A stretch of 64,000 nt of DNA. It comes from Bacteroidota bacterium (GTDB lineage Bacteria; Bacteroidota; Bacteroidia; Bacteroidales; VadinHA17). Numbering within the stretch: the first letter of the stretch is position 1; each line of letters starts with the position of its first letter. The DNA lies in NCBI GenBank assembly GCA_011050615.1, contig DRFJ01000014.1, positions 1 to 64,000 of the forward strand, in the 5' to 3' direction. Shown one piece after another: positions 5,908 to 51,979 of the stretch. The translations under genes and the position numbers were made by a program. A model generated the notes under the pieces. It was not told the DNA's origin. It worked only from the letters and a program-made list of their open reading frames with translations, and did no database searches.

Positions 5908-7462
5908 TTTTATATTCGTCCAGGCGGGCATTTATCCTGGACAGGGCTTCCTTGATGCTTTCTTCCGGGCCGACATAATTATCAGTTCCCCAGAACTGAC
6001 GGTCGTAGCTGCTAATAGTCTCGGAGAAAATTGAATGCAGGGGGGCACGTTCTTCCCGGGCAAATCGGTGTACATTTACCGTATCAATATCTGTGACAGC
6101 CATTTCGAAAAAGATCGTATAGGTATTGCCAAACAACCTGTTATTCTTTCTTGCATAAAACTCAAGATCACCCCTCACATGGTTAAGGTAATACCTCTTA
6201 TTGATATAACGGTAATTGACACGGTATTTTGCCGACCTTATCTTAACATTAAATCCCTTTGCAGCCTGCTGGATATATGATCTTTCAAGTTTATCAATAT
6301 AATCATCGTTAATCTCAAAATCAACGGCATGTATACCATAGTTGCTTGTGTTTATATAGATTGAACCTTTGGGCAGGGCAATATCATCAAGGTGCTCTTT
6401 CTGTTCAAATTCAATAACGAAGGCAGCCTCTTCGCCAATATTTATTATATCGGTCATCCGGTAATCATAATCGGAAAAACTTTCGGCACTGAGAAAATCA
6501 AAGGTGTTTTTAACCCCGTCGAGGAAAAGGCAGCCATCCATGCCTGATCTTAGTTTGAAAGTAAGGGTGTCTGAGGGTTCAAGGTTATTTATTTTCCGGC
6601 TCTTGTAGATCTTTATCTGGTCATTGAAAAGGGTGGCCGTGTAAGAGCTTTTATACATATTAAGCACAGCTTCCGAATATGTCAGCAATTTATTTCTCTT
6701 TGCAACGGATTCACGGTAGAAAGCAGTCATCTGGACAGGCGTGCTTCCATAATTCCCGGGAATATTTTCCTTTACCTTCCATATCAGTTCCATGGGCTCC
6801 CTGTTTCTTATCAGTACTTCGGGGATAGGGACATACATCCTGGTGAGTGAAATATTGAAGTGGCTGTTTACAGCCTGGCTGACAGGTATTTTCCTGTTGT
6901 AGAAACCAAGGTACGACACTACAAGGGTATCATCAAGGTAGTCTTTTGCCAGCTTAAGGGTATACTCACCCTCGTAATTTGATATGGTACCCTTGCCACG
7001 GTACTCAACGCTCACAGAAGCATAGGGGAGGGGCTGTCCATTTTCCGCATCTGTTACTTTACCTGTAAGGATATATACAGGTTCCCTTCCTTCTTCCCTG
7101 AGCAGGGGTGTTGAATCATTTACAGAACGGTAAATTATTATATGGTTGTCAATCACTGAATAATTCAGCACTTTATCCTGGAAGATGGTATCAAGAATAC
7201 TTTTCAGGGGAAGTTTTTCAGTTTTTACGCTTGTAAGATTTTCAGGCTCTACCAGGTCTGTGTCATAAGTGAAATAATAGCCTGTTTTCCGTGACAGGGA
7301 TTTCAGAACCGTTGATATGCTTGCCTCATTGATTCTTAGTGAGAGTCGGGAATCAAGTATGTTTTCCTGGGCATGTAAAAAAGAAGAACCTGTTATAAAG
7401 AGAATCATTATAACAAGACTTCTGGTCACTATATTTTTTCCGGCATAAGCTAGTACATCCAT
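5891..7462 (-). CDS. STN domain + carboxypeptidase-regulatory-like domain outer-membrane-type protein
   Basis: Signal peptide; STN-like LRINEASISTVLKSLSRKTGYYFTYD; LTGKVTDAENGQPLPYASVSV; C-terminal half paralogous to 8967..10304. Confidence 0.75.
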   Translation of the reverse strand: MDVLAYAGKNIVTRSLVIMILFITGSSFLHAQENILDSRLSLRINEASISTVLKSLSRKTGYYFTYDTDLVEPENLTSVKTEKLPLKSILDTIFQDKVLNYSVIDNHIIIYRSVNDSTPLLREEGREPVYILTGKVTDAENGQPLPYASVSVEYRGKGTISNYEGEYTLKLAKDYLDDTLVVSYLGFYNRKIPVSQAVNSHFNISLTRMYVPIPEVLIRNREPMELIWKVKENIPGNYGSTPVQMTAFYRESVAKRNKLLTYSEAVLNMYKSSYTATLFNDQIKIYKSRKINNLEPSDTLTFKLRSGMDGCLFLDGVKNTFDFLSAESFSDYDYRMTDIINIGEEAAFVIEFEQKEHLDDIALPKGSIYINTSNYGIHAVDFEINDDYIDKLERSYIQQAAKGFNVKIRSAKYRVNYRYINKRYYLNHVRGDLEFYARKNNRLFGNTYTIFFEMAVTDIDTVNVHRFAREERAPLHSIFSETISSYDRQFWGTDNYVGPEESIKEALSRINARLDEYKTNNSQ

Positions 7463-7477
7463 TTAATGTTTTAACCT

Positions 7478-8422
7478 TTATTTTGTATCCAGGAAATATT
7501 TATCTCCCTCCTTATAATATTCAAGGTTAAAAGTAGTACAAATAATACGGATAATTGTTTCAGGTGATTGATTATCGAAAACTGAAGATACTCTCAGATT
7601 CCTGATTTCATCATTTTCTGTTTCTATGTTGATATTATGAACTCTTTTAAGGTCGGAGATCACTTTACCCAGGCTGTCGCCTTCAAATATTAACACATTG
7701 GTTTTCCATGATAAATAATTAGGATCATCGTTATGTGTTTTTAAAGCTGAGTTATCGGCTACCAGGCCGAAATCCCCCTGTTCCAGTGTTACGGACTCTT
7801 CTCCCCTGTTACTTTTCAGCATGACCTTTCCGGAAGTAACGAGGACTTCAACCCTGTTGTTCCCGGAATTTACATTAAAGGATGTTCCCAGCACTGTTAT
7901 ATTGGCTTCTCCTGCATCAACAGTAAATGGTCTGGAGGCATCATTACGGATATCAAAGTAAGCTTCTCCCTCCAGCTTCACGCTTCTTGTCCGACCCTCA
8001 AATTTACCGGGGTACCGGATACTTGAATTCCTGTTGAGGAATACGGTACTTCCATCCGGGAGTTCAACCCTGACATTTTTCTGGTTCATACCTGCAGTGG
8101 TAATATTATCGTTGCTTTTTTCAAATATGTTTGTGCCAATATAAAGGCCTGTGAAGGTCAGTCCGATAATAATAATTACAGAAGCGGCTATTCTGACGGC
8201 TGTGGTTCTGAATATATTCCTTCCCCGGATAAGCTTATCTGTTTTCAGTCTCTTATAAAGCTTATTCCATGCTTTATCGGTATCTACTTTTTCATTTTTT
8301 ACAGTTACATCCATTTCCATCCAGTATTTTTGAACAGCCTGCTTTTGTCCGGAAAGAAAGTCATCAAACATAATTCTCTCCTTATCTTCCATATTGTTAC
8401 TATATTTTTTTTCTTTTTTCAT
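7478..8422 (-). CDS. FecR-family anti-sigma factor
   Basis: Single TM, VELPDGSTVFLNRNSSIRYP, EGEAYFDI, C-terminal DUF4974-like region. Confidence 0.92.
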   Translation of the reverse strand: MKKEKKYSNNMEDKERIMFDDFLSGQKQAVQKYWMEMDVTVKNEKVDTDKAWNKLYKRLKTDKLIRGRNIFRTTAVRIAASVIIIIGLTFTGLYIGTNIFEKSNDNITTAGMNQKNVRVELPDGSTVFLNRNSSIRYPGKFEGRTRSVKLEGEAYFDIRNDASRPFTVDAGEANITVLGTSFNVNSGNNRVEVLVTSGKVMLKSNRGEESVTLEQGDFGLVADNSALKTHNDDPNYLSWKTNVLIFEGDSLGKVISDLKRVHNINIETENDEIRNLRVSSVFDNQSPETIIRIICTTFNLEYYKEGDKYFLDTK

Positions 8423-46216: not shown

Positions 46217-47056
46217 ATGAAATTGTCACCCGTACATATTACAAATTTTAAAATTGACGGAGGTGCTATGTTCGGTGTAGTGCCTAAAGTTTTATGGAAT
46301 AAACGATACCCTGCCGATGAAGATAACCTGATAAACCTGGCACTTCGTTCGCTCGTGGTGGATAACGGTGAGAATGTGATATTAATCGATAATGGCTGGG
46401 GAGATAAGCAGGGTAAAAAATTTTTCAGTCATATTCACCTGAACGGAGGGGACGGTCTTGAAGGAGGGTTGAAAAAAGCAGGATACAGTCTGGATGATAT
46501 TACCGATGTGGTACTTACCCATCTTCATGCAGATCATTGCGGAGGTGGTGTCAGGAAAGTTGCCGGGAGTAAGGCTTATGAGATGGTTTTTCCCAGTGCA
46601 AAGTACTGGGTTAGCAGGCAGCAGTGGGACTGGGCCGTTAACCCCAATCCACGTGAGGCCGATAGTTTTCTCGAAGAAAACCTCCTTCCAATGTTGGGTC
46701 ATGGTAAATTGCATATGGTAGAAAAGGCCGGTAAGTTATTTGAAGGGTTTGAGGTGAGGATAGTAAACGGGCATACTCCGGGACAATTATTGCCCGTAAT
46801 AGACTACAGGGGAACAAAGATTGTTTTTGCCGCAGACCTCATACCCACAGTGGCACATATACCACTGCTATGGAATATGAGTTATGATCTTGACCAGCTG
46901 GCAACAATTAAAGAGAAACGGGATATTCTTGAGGAAGCCCTTACAAATAAATATATTCTGTTCTTCGAGCATGACGTATTCACGGAATGTTGCACGGTGA
47001 AAGACACTACCAGGGGGATCAGGGAAGACAGGCTTATGAACTTCAGTGAAATATAG
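46217..47056 (+). CDS. MBL-fold metallohydrolase
   Basis: VLTHLHADHCGG, NGHTPGQLLP, FAADLIPT; start set at MKLSPVHITN. Confidence 0.92.
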   Translation: MKLSPVHITNFKIDGGAMFGVVPKVLWNKRYPADEDNLINLALRSLVVDNGENVILIDNGWGDKQGKKFFSHIHLNGGDGLEGGLKKAGYSLDDITDVVLTHLHADHCGGGVRKVAGSKAYEMVFPSAKYWVSRQQWDWAVNPNPREADSFLEENLLPMLGHGKLHMVEKAGKLFEGFEVRIVNGHTPGQLLPVIDYRGTKIVFAADLIPTVAHIPLLWNMSYDLDQLATIKEKRDILEEALTNKYILFFEHDVFTECCTVKDTTRGIREDRLMNFSEI

Positions 47057-48524
47057 CCGGATCCTTGATAAGGGTTCTGGTATCTCGTTCCGGACTCTCA
47101 GCGCCTGTATTCTCTTCGATAGCCCTGATCTCAAATATCACGTGCCTGTCAAGGTTCTTCCAGTATAAAATTGCTTTCTGCCGCACCAGTTCCCAGTAGA
47201 TATTGCTGTCGAGGCCATGGATGAAATTGATTTCCTTCAGTTCCTTCCTGATTTCGTTAGCTATATCATTCCTGAGGCTCAATTTGATGGTCATATCCAT
47301 ATAGGTAAAGGTGGCTTCGGGGATACCGTCATCATTCACCACTTTCAAAAGCCCGTGGCCCGCGGTGGCACCCGTGCTGACCTGGAGGCCGTCATTCATA
47401 CAGCTTACCGGGGTTACCTCGCCGGCATATGATATAACCTTCATTTCATCAACACCTATATGAAAATATTCCCTTGCCCTGATCCCCATCTTAACACCTA
47501 TTGTTGCATAAATCCCAAAATGCCTGTGCAATTCATTGGTCAATACACCGGCATCAAATTCTTCCTTGCCATGCCGTTTAATAATATCTGGGATATATTC
47601 CTGCAGGTCGGCGAAATAAAAGGATGTATCAACGGGGATGTCCTTGAAGACCTGGTTCCTGTTAACCGTATTGCCGGAAAGAATATCACATATCAAATCG
47701 TCACTGAACTTTTCGATGCCAGGGCTGTAGAAAGAGACCTTATCAAGGGAGTCGGCAATAAAAAGTCCGGGATAATGAAGGTAGATAGGTATCATATCGT
47801 CTACAAGCCCAAGGATAAAATCGTGATCTTCACCTGATCTGAAAAGCTCAGCCGTTCTCCTGGCATAGGGGTTATTTATAGTTTCAATTTTATCAAGCAG
47901 TGTACTGGTATAAAACTCCATAAAATAATACCCCACAACTTTCAGTGGTGTTTCATTTTCAAGCATTTTCCCAGCCGAGGCGGTGTCAAGCTCATAATTG
48001 AATCCTTCAAGCGGTTTAATACCATCATTGCTCCAGATAATTTCCTTTACCTGACTGAACAGTCCGGGCTTATTTTCAGAAAATCTGTAAACTGTATTAA
48101 GACTGGCGAGGGAAATGAAACTGACCGGCGTTTTTTCATATTTCAGCACATAAGTCAGCACCTCAATAAAATTTGCAGCATTATCTGAGCTTACACCCGT
48201 GTCATCAGCCCAGGCATAGTTCATTGGGACAGGCATCTCCCTGGCGGCAGGGTTCCTGTTTATTCCAACCATTAATCCCTGGTGGTGATAGCTGTCAAGA
48301 AGGCTTCTGATTTTCACATAGGCTTCACCGGCAGGCATTACGCCTCCCGAGGCTATGATTGCCAGTACCCTCACATCGGGTGAGGCAAGCAGCATATTTA
48401 TTGCCTTCAGGTCATCCATTCCCCCGTCAGTGTCGATTATAACATAATGTGAAGGTTTCCATGGGTGAGACAGCAGAACCTGTGTACAGAGAATAAATAT
48501 CAGGGCACTTATAATCTTCTTCAT
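47043..48524 (-). CDS. exported nucleoside hydrolase-fold protein with C-terminal FmdE-like domain
   Basis: Signal peptide; DTDGGMDDLKAINMLLASP; C-terminus HRHFGIYATIGVKMG..CMNDGLQVSTGATAGHG..EATFTYMDMTIKL resembles FmdE. Confidence 0.72.
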   Translation of the reverse strand: MKKIISALIFILCTQVLLSHPWKPSHYVIIDTDGGMDDLKAINMLLASPDVRVLAIIASGGVMPAGEAYVKIRSLLDSYHHQGLMVGINRNPAAREMPVPMNYAWADDTGVSSDNAANFIEVLTYVLKYEKTPVSFISLASLNTVYRFSENKPGLFSQVKEIIWSNDGIKPLEGFNYELDTASAGKMLENETPLKVVGYYFMEFYTSTLLDKIETINNPYARRTAELFRSGEDHDFILGLVDDMIPIYLHYPGLFIADSLDKVSFYSPGIEKFSDDLICDILSGNTVNRNQVFKDIPVDTSFYFADLQEYIPDIIKRHGKEEFDAGVLTNELHRHFGIYATIGVKMGIRAREYFHIGVDEMKVISYAGEVTPVSCMNDGLQVSTGATAGHGLLKVVNDDGIPEATFTYMDMTIKLSLRNDIANEIRKELKEINFIHGLDSNIYWELVRQKAILYWKNLDRHVIFEIRAIEENTGAESPERDTRTLIKDPAIFH

Positions 48525-48627: not shown

Positions 48628-50181
48628 ATGAAGAAATTCTGGATCATTTTCATCCCCGGTATAATTCTTGGTATGCTCCTGGTCATTGGAGGGGACAAGG
48701 CCATAAAGGTGACATCCGGGAATGATTTCTGTGCCAGCTGTCATATTCATCCCCAGGCCACCACATCGTGGAAGCAATCGCCACACTATATTACAAGGTC
48801 GGGTGATAAAACGGGATGTGTTGAATGTCACCTCCCCCCTAAAGGACAGGGTCATATCCCGGCCAAGGCAAGGACGGGCGTCAGGGATCTTTGGGGGCAG
48901 TTGTTCAGGGATCATGAAAGCTTCGACTGGGAAGAAAAATCCAGGCTCGAGAATGCAAGGAAACATGTTCCTGAAAGCAGTTGCCTGCATTGCCATGAAA
49001 CACTTTTCACCACGGAATTATCAAGGGAAGGAGAGGAGGCCCACCTGTATTATGACCAGGCTGAGAAAACGAATGATCTTCATTGCATAAACTGCCACCT
49101 GAATGCAGGTCATTACATTGAAGGGTATACTCACGGGGGGAATGAATCATTCGGAAAGCCGGAGAAGGAACCTGATACTTTATATAATGAGCCTGCACAT
49201 GTTGTGTCTTTTACCTCTTACACTGAATATATTCCTGGTTCTTCAGTATCTTTTGACATGGTAGCGGTACCCGGGGGCGATTTTATGATGGGCAGCCCTG
49301 AAGACGAGCCTTTCAGGGATACTGATGAGGGGCCGCGTGTTAAAGTGAAAATCAGTCCCTTCTTCATGGCTGAGGTTGAGGTAAGCTGGGATGAATACCT
49401 GGCCTTTTATGCACAGACCTCAGCGGAAGGTCGCAGCACAGATACCGAAGGTGCCAGGACCGGACCTGATGCAGATGCCATAACAGGAGCCACTCCTCCA
49501 TACGGACAGCCCGACCAGAACTGGGGCATGGGCAGGAGACCGGTTATTTCAGTTACCCACCATGCTGCCCAAACATACTGCGAATGGTTGAGCAGGGTGA
49601 CAGGAAAAACCTACCGCCTTCCTACGGAAGCAGAGTGGGAATATGCATGCAGGGCAGGAACACAATCACCGTATTTCTTTGAAGGCGATCCCGGGGATTT
49701 TCAGCGCAGAGGAATTTTAGCAGGAATAAGGAAAAATGATACCACAAAAATTAATACATTTGTGATATACCAGGCTAACAGTCCGGGAAAAACTCAGGAG
49801 CCGTCAACGGTTAAGCCAAACCCTTTCGGTCTTAAGAACATGCCCGGGAACGTGGCGGAATTTTGTTCCGACTGGTATTCTGAAGCTACCTATTCAATGT
49901 ATCCTGAATCGGGAGTGACTGATCCTGAAGGCCCGCCGTCAGGAGATGAGAGAGTAATAAGGGGAGGATCTTTCAGGGATCAGGCAGGCATGCTGAGATC
50001 AGCTGCGCGTGATCATACGAAGACTGATCAATGGCTCAGGACTGATCCTCAGATACCTAAGAGCAGATGGTGGTATTCTGATTGTTTTCACGTAGGCTTC
50101 AGGGTGGTTTGTGAATATGATGAAAAAACCGGAAACAGGAAGCCTGAACCGAGCCCCGAGTTCGGGGCGGGCTCGCCGTAA
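48628..50181 (+). CDS. NrfH/NapC-like tetraheme cytochrome c fused to a SUMF1/FGE-like domain
   Basis: N-terminal TM; CASCH, CVECH, CLHCH, CINCH; then VAVPGGDFMMGSPEDEPFRDTDEGPRVKVKISPFFMAEVEVSWDEYLAF, YRLPTEAEWEYACRAG, VIRGGSFRD. Confidence 0.9.
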   Translation: MKKFWIIFIPGIILGMLLVIGGDKAIKVTSGNDFCASCHIHPQATTSWKQSPHYITRSGDKTGCVECHLPPKGQGHIPAKARTGVRDLWGQLFRDHESFDWEEKSRLENARKHVPESSCLHCHETLFTTELSREGEEAHLYYDQAEKTNDLHCINCHLNAGHYIEGYTHGGNESFGKPEKEPDTLYNEPAHVVSFTSYTEYIPGSSVSFDMVAVPGGDFMMGSPEDEPFRDTDEGPRVKVKISPFFMAEVEVSWDEYLAFYAQTSAEGRSTDTEGARTGPDADAITGATPPYGQPDQNWGMGRRPVISVTHHAAQTYCEWLSRVTGKTYRLPTEAEWEYACRAGTQSPYFFEGDPGDFQRRGILAGIRKNDTTKINTFVIYQANSPGKTQEPSTVKPNPFGLKNMPGNVAEFCSDWYSEATYSMYPESGVTDPEGPPSGDERVIRGGSFRDQAGMLRSAARDHTKTDQWLRTDPQIPKSRWWYSDCFHVGFRVVCEYDEKTGNRKPEPSPEFGAGSP

Positions 50182-50235: not shown

Positions 50236-51576
50236 ATGAAAAATTCTATATCACGCCGAAACTTCTTGGGCAAAGCTGCTGCAGCAGGTGCTGCAGGGGC
50301 AGTGATGCCTTCCCTTCTGAACTCATGTGCCCCCGATGGCCGGATAAAAGATGTTATATTGCCCGAATTCCTTGATCAGGCACCCGACGGCCCGGAGTTA
50401 AAAGCAGGGCTTATAGGCTGTGGCGGCCGTGGTACCGGCGCTGCAACAGATTTCCTGTCTGCCGGTCCCAATCTTAAAGTCACCGCCCTCGGTGATGTAT
50501 TCCCTGACCGGCTTAATTCATGCAGGGAAAGACTGATGGAGCAAAAAAACAATGAAGTAGCAGATGAAAATTGCTTTATTGGCTTTGATGCATTTCAGAA
50601 AGTAATTGATTCAGGTGTGGATGTAATAATCCTTGCAACACCGCCATTTTTCAGGCCCGAACATTTTGCGGCTGCTGTCGATGCACGCAAACATGTTTTC
50701 ATGGAAAAACCTGTAGCTGTTGATCCTGAGGGAGCCAGGTCAATTATGGCCTCTGCAAAAAAGGCCGAAAGTATGGGACTCAGTGTGGTAACAGGAACAC
50801 AACGCAGGCACCAGAGGGACTATGCCAGCACATATGCGCAGGTTGCAGCAGGTACAATAGGCGAAATAGTCAGTGCAAACTGTTACTGGAATCAGAGTAA
50901 ACTATGGCACCGTGACCCGAATGCTGAATGGACAGAAATGGAATATATGATAAGAGACTGGGTAAACTGGTGCTGGCTTTCTGGTGATCATATAGTTGAA
51001 CAACATGTCCATAACCTTGACGTTATAAACTGGTTTACTGGAAAATATCCTGTACAGGCTGTTGGATTTGGATCACGCCAAAGGAGGCTGACAGGTGATC
51101 AGTTCGATAATTTCAGTGTTGACTATGTTCTTGACAACGGGGTTCATATTCACAGCATGTGCCGCCAGATTGACGGGTGTGAAAACAATGTGTCAGAAAG
51201 AATACAGGGAAGCAGGGGATCAACAAACTGCCGGAATGCAATCTATGATCTGGAAGGAAGGGAAATATGGAAATATAAATACCCCCTTGATGAAGAAGGA
51301 AATGAGACCGGGAATGTAAAGGTAAGCCCCTATGTCCAGGAGCATATTGACCTTGTGACAGCCATCAGAACAGATAAACCTTTCAACGAAGCAGAAAATA
51401 CGGCTATTTCTACAATGGTCGGGATAATGGGACGAATATCATCATATACGGGCAGGCTGGTGACCTGGGATGAGATGATGAATTCAGACCTGAAGCTGGG
51501 GCCTGAAGTTTTTGAATTCGGCCCTGTCGATATTCCAAAGGAAGTGCCGGTACCTGGTGAGGCATATAAAGGCTGA
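50236..51576 (+). CDS. Tat-exported Gfo/Idh/MocA family oxidoreductase
   Basis: SRRNFLGKAAAAGAAGA twin-arginine signal; GLIGCGGRGTGAA; VFMEKPVAVDPEGAR. Confidence 0.92.
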   Translation: MKNSISRRNFLGKAAAAGAAGAVMPSLLNSCAPDGRIKDVILPEFLDQAPDGPELKAGLIGCGGRGTGAATDFLSAGPNLKVTALGDVFPDRLNSCRERLMEQKNNEVADENCFIGFDAFQKVIDSGVDVIILATPPFFRPEHFAAAVDARKHVFMEKPVAVDPEGARSIMASAKKAESMGLSVVTGTQRRHQRDYASTYAQVAAGTIGEIVSANCYWNQSKLWHRDPNAEWTEMEYMIRDWVNWCWLSGDHIVEQHVHNLDVINWFTGKYPVQAVGFGSRQRRLTGDQFDNFSVDYVLDNGVHIHSMCRQIDGCENNVSERIQGSRGSTNCRNAIYDLEGREIWKYKYPLDEEGNETGNVKVSPYVQEHIDLVTAIRTDKPFNEAENTAISTMVGIMGRISSYTGRLVTWDEMMNSDLKLGPEVFEFGPVDIPKEVPVPGEAYKG

Positions 51577-51820
51577 TGAAAAAATTCTCTTTCTTGCATT
51601 TGTCGCTTTAGCTTTTTATTCCTGCTCATATAATGAGCTTTTCAGAAATAATATCCGGTGGGAGGAGATAAGCGAACTGCCGCCTGCCCCCGGTCTGGAT
51701 GTTCAGCATGGTCTTGCATGTCATTATGCTGGAGTATCGGGTGATGTAATAATAGTGGCGGGAGGGGCCAATTTCCCTGATAAAGCTGTTTATGAAGACG
51801 GGTCGCTGACATATTCACTA
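51576..51820 (+). pseudogene. N-terminal remnant of a NanM-like cyclically permuted mutarotase
   Basis: ILFLAFVALAFYSCSYNELFRNNIRWEEISELPPAPGLDVQHGLACHYAGVSGDVIIVAGGANFPDKAVYEDG, then homology ends; ATG-A6 start is one frame off. Confidence 0.7.
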
Positions 51821-51865
51821 CAAGTGATGAAAAGCAGGCAGCTAAAAGTATATGGATGCACGGTG

Positions 51866-51979
51866 TTTTTCAATATAAATTCTATATCAACGGCCTTTGT
51901 GACTGATTTCTACAGGAAGATAGCTCCCGGTAAATCTGATAAGACTAACCTTGGATACATCAGGATCCTGAAATTATAA
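51866..51979 (+). pseudogene. remnant resembling a sodium:solute symporter segment
   Basis: NINSISTAFVTDFYRKIAPGKSDKTNLGYIRI resembles the SSS-family motif around ..STAFVTDFYR.. Confidence 0.5.

Follow-up and report, generated by a model that had tools for sequence, protein, structure and literature searches.

A widely conserved fusion of a NapC/NrfH-like tetraheme cytochrome with a SUMF1-like domain in Bacteroidales, and its near-constant Gfo/Idh/MocA partner

Cytochromes of the NapC/NirT/NrfH family usually run electrons from quinol outward. In the related TorC/DorC pentaheme cytochromes, the C-terminal domain meets the partner enzyme. Bacteroidota also carry many Tat-exported Gfo/Idh/MocA oxidoreductases, and we know of no explanation for how those with a captive NAD can turn over where the compartment offers no free NAD. 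Here we analyzed a Bacteroidales gene that joins a NapC-like cytochrome to a second domain, within a stretch of 64,000 nucleotides (the window).

The gene lies at 48628-50181 on the + strand, as do all its features given below. It is a single open frame with an ATG start and without frameshift, and encodes a membrane-anchored fusion of 517 aa. The original prediction described one ORF combining an N-terminal anchor, four CXXCH motifs and a SUMF1-like domain, and proposed a domain search; the search agreed with this description, placing PF03264 (NapC/NirT cytochrome) at residues 4-163 (E 7.5e-27, 94.6 bits against a gathering score of 24.1) and PF03781 (FGE-sulfatase) at residues 210-464 (E 1.1e-42, 146.9 bits against a cut-off of 23.3), both well above threshold. 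The anchor is a helix at residues 2-29 (48631-48714), found in the sequence and in both AlphaFold models, of which the first was weak (pLDDT 66) and the second, from a deeper alignment, reached 75. The heme motifs are CASCH (residues 35-39, 48730-48744), CVECH (64-68, 48817-48831), CLHCH (119-123, 48982-48996) and CINCH (153-157, 49084-49098), the last three being invariant in the alignment.

Among solved structures, only Desulfovibrio vulgaris NrfH (2j7a) matched the N-terminal part. In the alignment to its chain, the quinol-site Lys and Asp, which we take to be K82 and D89 of NrfH, pair with K80 and D87 of the fusion (48865-48888), while the Met after the first CXXCH of NrfH pairs with His41. 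H41, K80 and D87 were all invariant across 71 homologues. The fusion stayed below the NrfH equivalog TIGR03153 (68.8 against a cut-off of 134.2 bits) and below the TorC model (72.6 against 478.2 bits).

About 80 contigs from other Bacteroidales genomes carry the full-length fusion, with 53-84% identity. With fragments counted, the fusion was present in 73 of 147 related genomes, about half, some of them holding two copies, and Parabacteroides distasonis carries a 51% relative. Among 297 genomes spread evenly over the phylum, the window's own was the sole full-length fusion past E 1e-60. Mean identity of aligned homologues to the window protein was 0.60 for the NapC part and 0.68 for the SUMF1 part, and lowest (0.41) for the variable linker between them (residues 176-205, 49153-49242). 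This similar conservation of both domains implies that the second domain is under selection. A joining artefact, such as the frameshift that the original prediction had named as its possible undoing, was ruled out by intact fusions in dozens of independent assemblies. It had also named a common fusion with an assigned function; the fusion did prove common, but an assigned function was not found. We conclude that the fusion is a genuine, widely conserved bacterial protein.

The SUMF1/FGE-like domain spans residues 206-496 (49243-50115). Its region of the FGE catalytic cysteines reads RGGSFRDQAGMLR (49960-49998), and none of 53 aligned homologues has a Cys at the columns equivalent to these cysteines (451 and 456). 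Formylglycine generation, already considered unlikely in the original prediction, was therefore ruled out. In Foldseek, the nearest PDB fold was PvdO (5hha, TM by target length 0.70-0.74), followed by FGEs. PvdO was also the second NCBIfam match, so the domain might itself be a catalyst that oxidizes some small molecule, in the way PvdO acts on dihydropyoverdine, with the cytochrome as acceptor. We consider this quite improbable, as the fusion's 103.6 bits fall short of the 500 required by the PvdO equivalog (NF051459), and such a catalyst would leave the Gfo linkage described below unexplained.

Directly downstream, 54 bp after the fusion ORF, starts the Tat-signal Gfo/Idh/MocA gene noticed in the original prediction (50236-51576, +; 446 aa). 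The product has a PF01408 Rossmann domain with an intact glycine (NAD) motif, the catalytic EKP lysine (Lys158) and the HxxD residues His259 and Asp262, and these motifs were kept in 57 of 57 aligned sequences. Judging from this conservation, the partner should be an active dehydrogenase. Matches in genus g10 contain in-frame stops, and the called ORFs there are about 442 aa long, so these stops are probably the natural C-terminus just short of the query's end. The window also holds a short ORF at 51512-51979 (+) with a partial match to an N-acetylneuraminate epimerase propeller, below the Pfam cut-off, which looks like a gene remnant.

The original prediction treated the Gfo gene as a mere neighbor. 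Co-occurrence and adjacency both indicate more than that. Across the 147 genomes, 72 had both fusion and Gfo, one the fusion only, four Gfo only, and 70 neither (Fisher p 8e-36, without phylogenetic correction). Presence of the two agreed in all eight fusion-bearing families of the same order outside the window's own family, as well as within genera g9 and g12, both of which hold mixed states. Contig ends break the locus in the fusion-only genome and in three of the four Gfo-only genomes; the fourth (G005), a single contig, has one Gfo without an adjoining fusion and another beside an assembly gap. Of 91 full-length fusions, 76 are followed by Gfo within 600 bp, at a median gap of 81 bp; in another five it lies 9-11 kb downstream, behind SusC/SusD. 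At loci L139, L140 and L141, SusC/SusD and two opposite-strand genes sit between fusion and Gfo. When the locus in the window was compared with 80 others, Gfo followed the fusion at 60 of these 81, and all 20 additional loci, mostly of second paralogues, have it too. Gfo is a near-constant partner of the fusion.

We also considered whether quinol electrons pass through the fusion to a reductase of periplasmic repair or respiration, such as NrfA or an exported MsrAB. The original prediction had seen no NrfA-type partner nearby, and this held beyond the window: 30 of the 147 genomes had both NrfA and the fusion, 43 the fusion only, 26 NrfA only and 48 neither (Fisher p=0.50). NrfA was also not found in the source genome, which is 85% complete. 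NrfA as a hidden partner was ruled out by this lack of association. As for MsrAB, quinol-driven repair of the MsrPQ kind exists, and at locus L118 an exported MsrA-MsrB fusion of about 310 aa (6626-7555) lies directly upstream of the cytochrome fusion. Genes of the same size occupy this position at many second-paralogue loci (L113-L127). However, no MsrAB-like gene was seen at the primary loci, the window included; MsrAB was rejected as a general partner, being confined to the second-paralogue loci, and we judge the reductase-feeding role as a whole very improbable.

The pairing with Gfo extends beyond the cytochrome fusion. In a more distant genome (G357), a stand-alone SUMF1 protein lies next to a Gfo of the same type, with 39% identity over the full length. 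This genome belongs to a different order of the phylum; of 117 genomes of that order, 33 had both this SUMF1 and Gfo, none SUMF1 only, three Gfo only, and 81 neither. Stand-alone SUMF1 clusters further contain a gene for the flavin transferase ApbE (PF02424, E ~1e-70). A dedicated ApbE subtype followed stand-alone SUMF1 closely in the same 117 genomes (30 with both, three with each one alone, 81 with neither), and 26 of its 36 copies lay within 8 kb of SUMF1 or Gfo. Stand-alone SUMF1 proteins of the same subfamily also occur in more distant members of the class (L158, 8059-16361; L160, 7698-15647), clustered with YceI, a PSCyt1/PSD1 cytochrome and DUF1501, and at L160 with ApbE too. These clusters are another link of the SUMF1 subfamily to cytochromes.

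ApbE puts FMN on the last residue of D-x-x-[S/T]-G-A-[S/T] (PMC12052999), and D283-A-I-T-G-A-T289 of the window protein (49474-49494) matches this exactly, which makes it a candidate flavinylation sequon. The pattern D..[ST]G[AS][TS] occurred once each in 48 of 80 fusions, against five of 846 other ORFs, and most remaining fusions have a GP variant. D283, G287, T289, P290 and P291 were invariant in 100 fusions, with Ala at position 288 in 66 and Pro in 34; the stand-alone relatives have D-x-[IV]-[ST]-x-P-[S/T]. The loop was missing from nine generic SUMF1 proteins compared. In the better AlphaFold model, residues 267-300, including this loop (pLDDT mostly below 50), are of low confidence, consistent with a segment that is probably exposed; neither model placed the loop confidently, so no geometry can be claimed for it.

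No ApbE gene adjoins the Bacteroidales fusions. The source genome encodes two, one of them in an Nqr operon, along with TatC and cytochrome c assembly genes. The other is genus-restricted and heads a cluster on contig C4 (L195, 6128-11256), followed by a Tat Gfo, a 3-keto-disaccharide hydrolase and another Tat Gfo. We ruled it out as the dedicated transferase for all fusions, since its strong matches stay within the genus.

Could the SUMF1 domain instead have no redox role and keep Gfo at the membrane as a module for docking or substrate binding? Electrons from the hemes would then pass to some unrelated reductase, or would reach the hemes from Gfo without a flavin. FGE-like folds are structural in GldK/PorK, and the sequon is imperfect in many members, in line with such a role. 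Yet a docking module leaves both the invariant D-x-x-x-G-x-T-P-P loop and the co-occurrence with ApbE unexplained, and direct transfer from NADH to heme without a flavin would be chemically unfavorable. On balance, we consider a docking module unlikely.

The neighboring genes give a carbohydrate context. A TIM-barrel protein of the AP_endonuc_2 family is present at 34 of 81 loci, and sometimes a lactonase and glycerol genes. The second-paralogue operons carry an extra Tat Gfo and a ThuA protein, and locus L123 combines two PF06439 3-keto-disaccharide hydrolases with a TIM-barrel protein. In Caulobacter, genetics ties a DUF1080 protein to lactose use together with the LacABC 3-dehydrogenase (PMC9007349). 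This neighborhood evidence, with its Gfo enzymes, DUF1080 proteins, ThuA and Tat TIM-barrel proteins, points to 3-keto-glycoside-type chemistry. Upstream in the window, and divergent from the fusion gene, lies a gene (47043-48524, -) whose exported product joins a nucleoside-hydrolase-like domain to an FmdE domain, with family members at 37 of 81 loci.

Taking these observations into account, we propose, at just short of even confidence, that the fusion acts at the membrane as electron-transfer partner to the adjoining Tat-exported periplasmic Gfo, with electrons passing from sugar to NAD(H) on Gfo, to FMN on T289, to the four hemes and to menaquinone. Gfo would oxidize a hydroxyl of a sugar or glycoside with its captive NAD, probably giving a keto-glycoside. 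The SUMF1-like domain would dock on Gfo and accept the hydride via an FMN that ApbE may attach to Thr289 in the DAITGAT loop. The FMN would hand single electrons to the four hemes, from which the NapC part would deliver them to menaquinone. Such a flavin would bridge the hydride donor and the one-electron hemes, and so solve the transfer problem between them.

In favor of this proposal we count the co-occurrence and adjacency of Gfo, the pairing of stand-alone SUMF1 with Gfo, the ApbE linkage, the sequon, ThuA and PF06439 beside the paralogues, K80/D87, and the Tat and cytochrome c assembly genes. Against it stand the roughly one third of fusions with GP rather than GA in the sequon, the xP of the stand-alone relatives, the Bacteroidales fusions without an adjoining ApbE, the G005 Gfo without a fusion beside it, and the outward direction usual for NapC-family proteins.

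The last point bears on the direction of flow. With the same pair of proteins, electrons might instead run from menaquinol through the hemes and the SUMF1 domain to Gfo, reducing a keto sugar or keeping the captive cofactor reduced. Quinol-outward flow is the rule for NapC, NrfH and CymA, and the linkage of fusion and Gfo is equally expected under it. However, at textbook potentials menaquinol would have to reduce NAD against a step of roughly 0.2 V, and the adjoining hydrolases and ThuA better suit oxidation followed by cleavage. ImoA, a proposed quinone reducer, oxidized quinol when tested (PMC9600427), which favors the reversed flow. We hold the reversed direction to be unlikely; because of the textbook midpoint potentials, flow from sugar into the quinone pool is the more likely one. 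The quinol-linked periplasmic redox module of the original prediction is thus well supported by the retention of K80/D87 and the absence of the FGE cysteines, but the outward flow that its wording implied is judged less likely.

More broadly, and more tentatively, at less than even confidence, we suggest that a SUMF1/FGE fold has become an electron-transfer domain with covalently bound flavin, which would serve as a quinone-pool outlet for NAD-bound periplasmic Gfo enzymes. In many Bacteroidales this domain would be fused to NapC; elsewhere in the phylum it would stand apart, as a lipoprotein or exported protein served by an ApbE of its own. Such a module, a quinone-linked partner dedicated to Gfo, offers a concrete answer to how captive NAD turns over. 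Should the flavin prediction hold, the ApbE substrates would gain a new fold, and a role would fall to a subfamily that so far bears just the annotation "SUMF1/EgtB/PvdO family nonheme iron enzyme" and is also present in the gut bacterium Parabacteroides distasonis. The two flavinylation surveys searched do not mention SUMF1 or formylglycine among ApbE substrates, and we found no description of a NapC-SUMF1 fusion or of the fusion-Gfo pair in the open-access literature.

Compared with the NapC/NirT/NrfH family (NrfH 2j7a, CymA, NapC, ImoA), the fusion is alike in its N-terminal anchor, four CXXCH motifs and quinol-site Lys/Asp, but differs by its C-terminal SUMF1 domain and by having a Gfo/Idh/MocA partner gene and no known reductase. 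It falls outside NrfH proper, as it misses the TIGR03153 cut-off, has His41 in place of the Met of the heme-1 CXXCHxM and lacks an NrfA partner. With TorC/DorC it shares the arrangement of a NapC-like tetraheme part followed by a C-terminal domain, but this domain has no heme motif and an unrelated fold. FGE/SUMF1, PvdO, GldK and EgtB have its fold and PF03781, whereas the fusion lacks the catalytic Cys pair and carries a conserved DxxSG(A/P)TPP loop absent from generic SUMF1 proteins. Like the ApbE-flavinylated extracytosolic proteins (NqrC, RnfG, NosR, DUF2271, DUF3570), it is exported, has the sequon D-x-x-[S/T]-G-A-[S/T] and has stand-alone relatives linked to ApbE; its flavin is predicted from the sequon, and its SUMF1 fold is not among the substrates named in the flavinylation surveys searched. 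The LacABC-type periplasmic 3-dehydrogenases with DUF1080 hydrolases of Caulobacter and Pedobacter (PMC9007349) resemble this system in membrane-linked periplasmic sugar oxidation near DUF1080 genes, but the putative dehydrogenase here is a Tat-exported NAD-type Gfo/Idh/MocA enzyme, and no LacABC-like gene was recognized at the loci. We regard the fusion as a quinone oxidoreductase of the NapC family whose second domain and partner are of a new kind.
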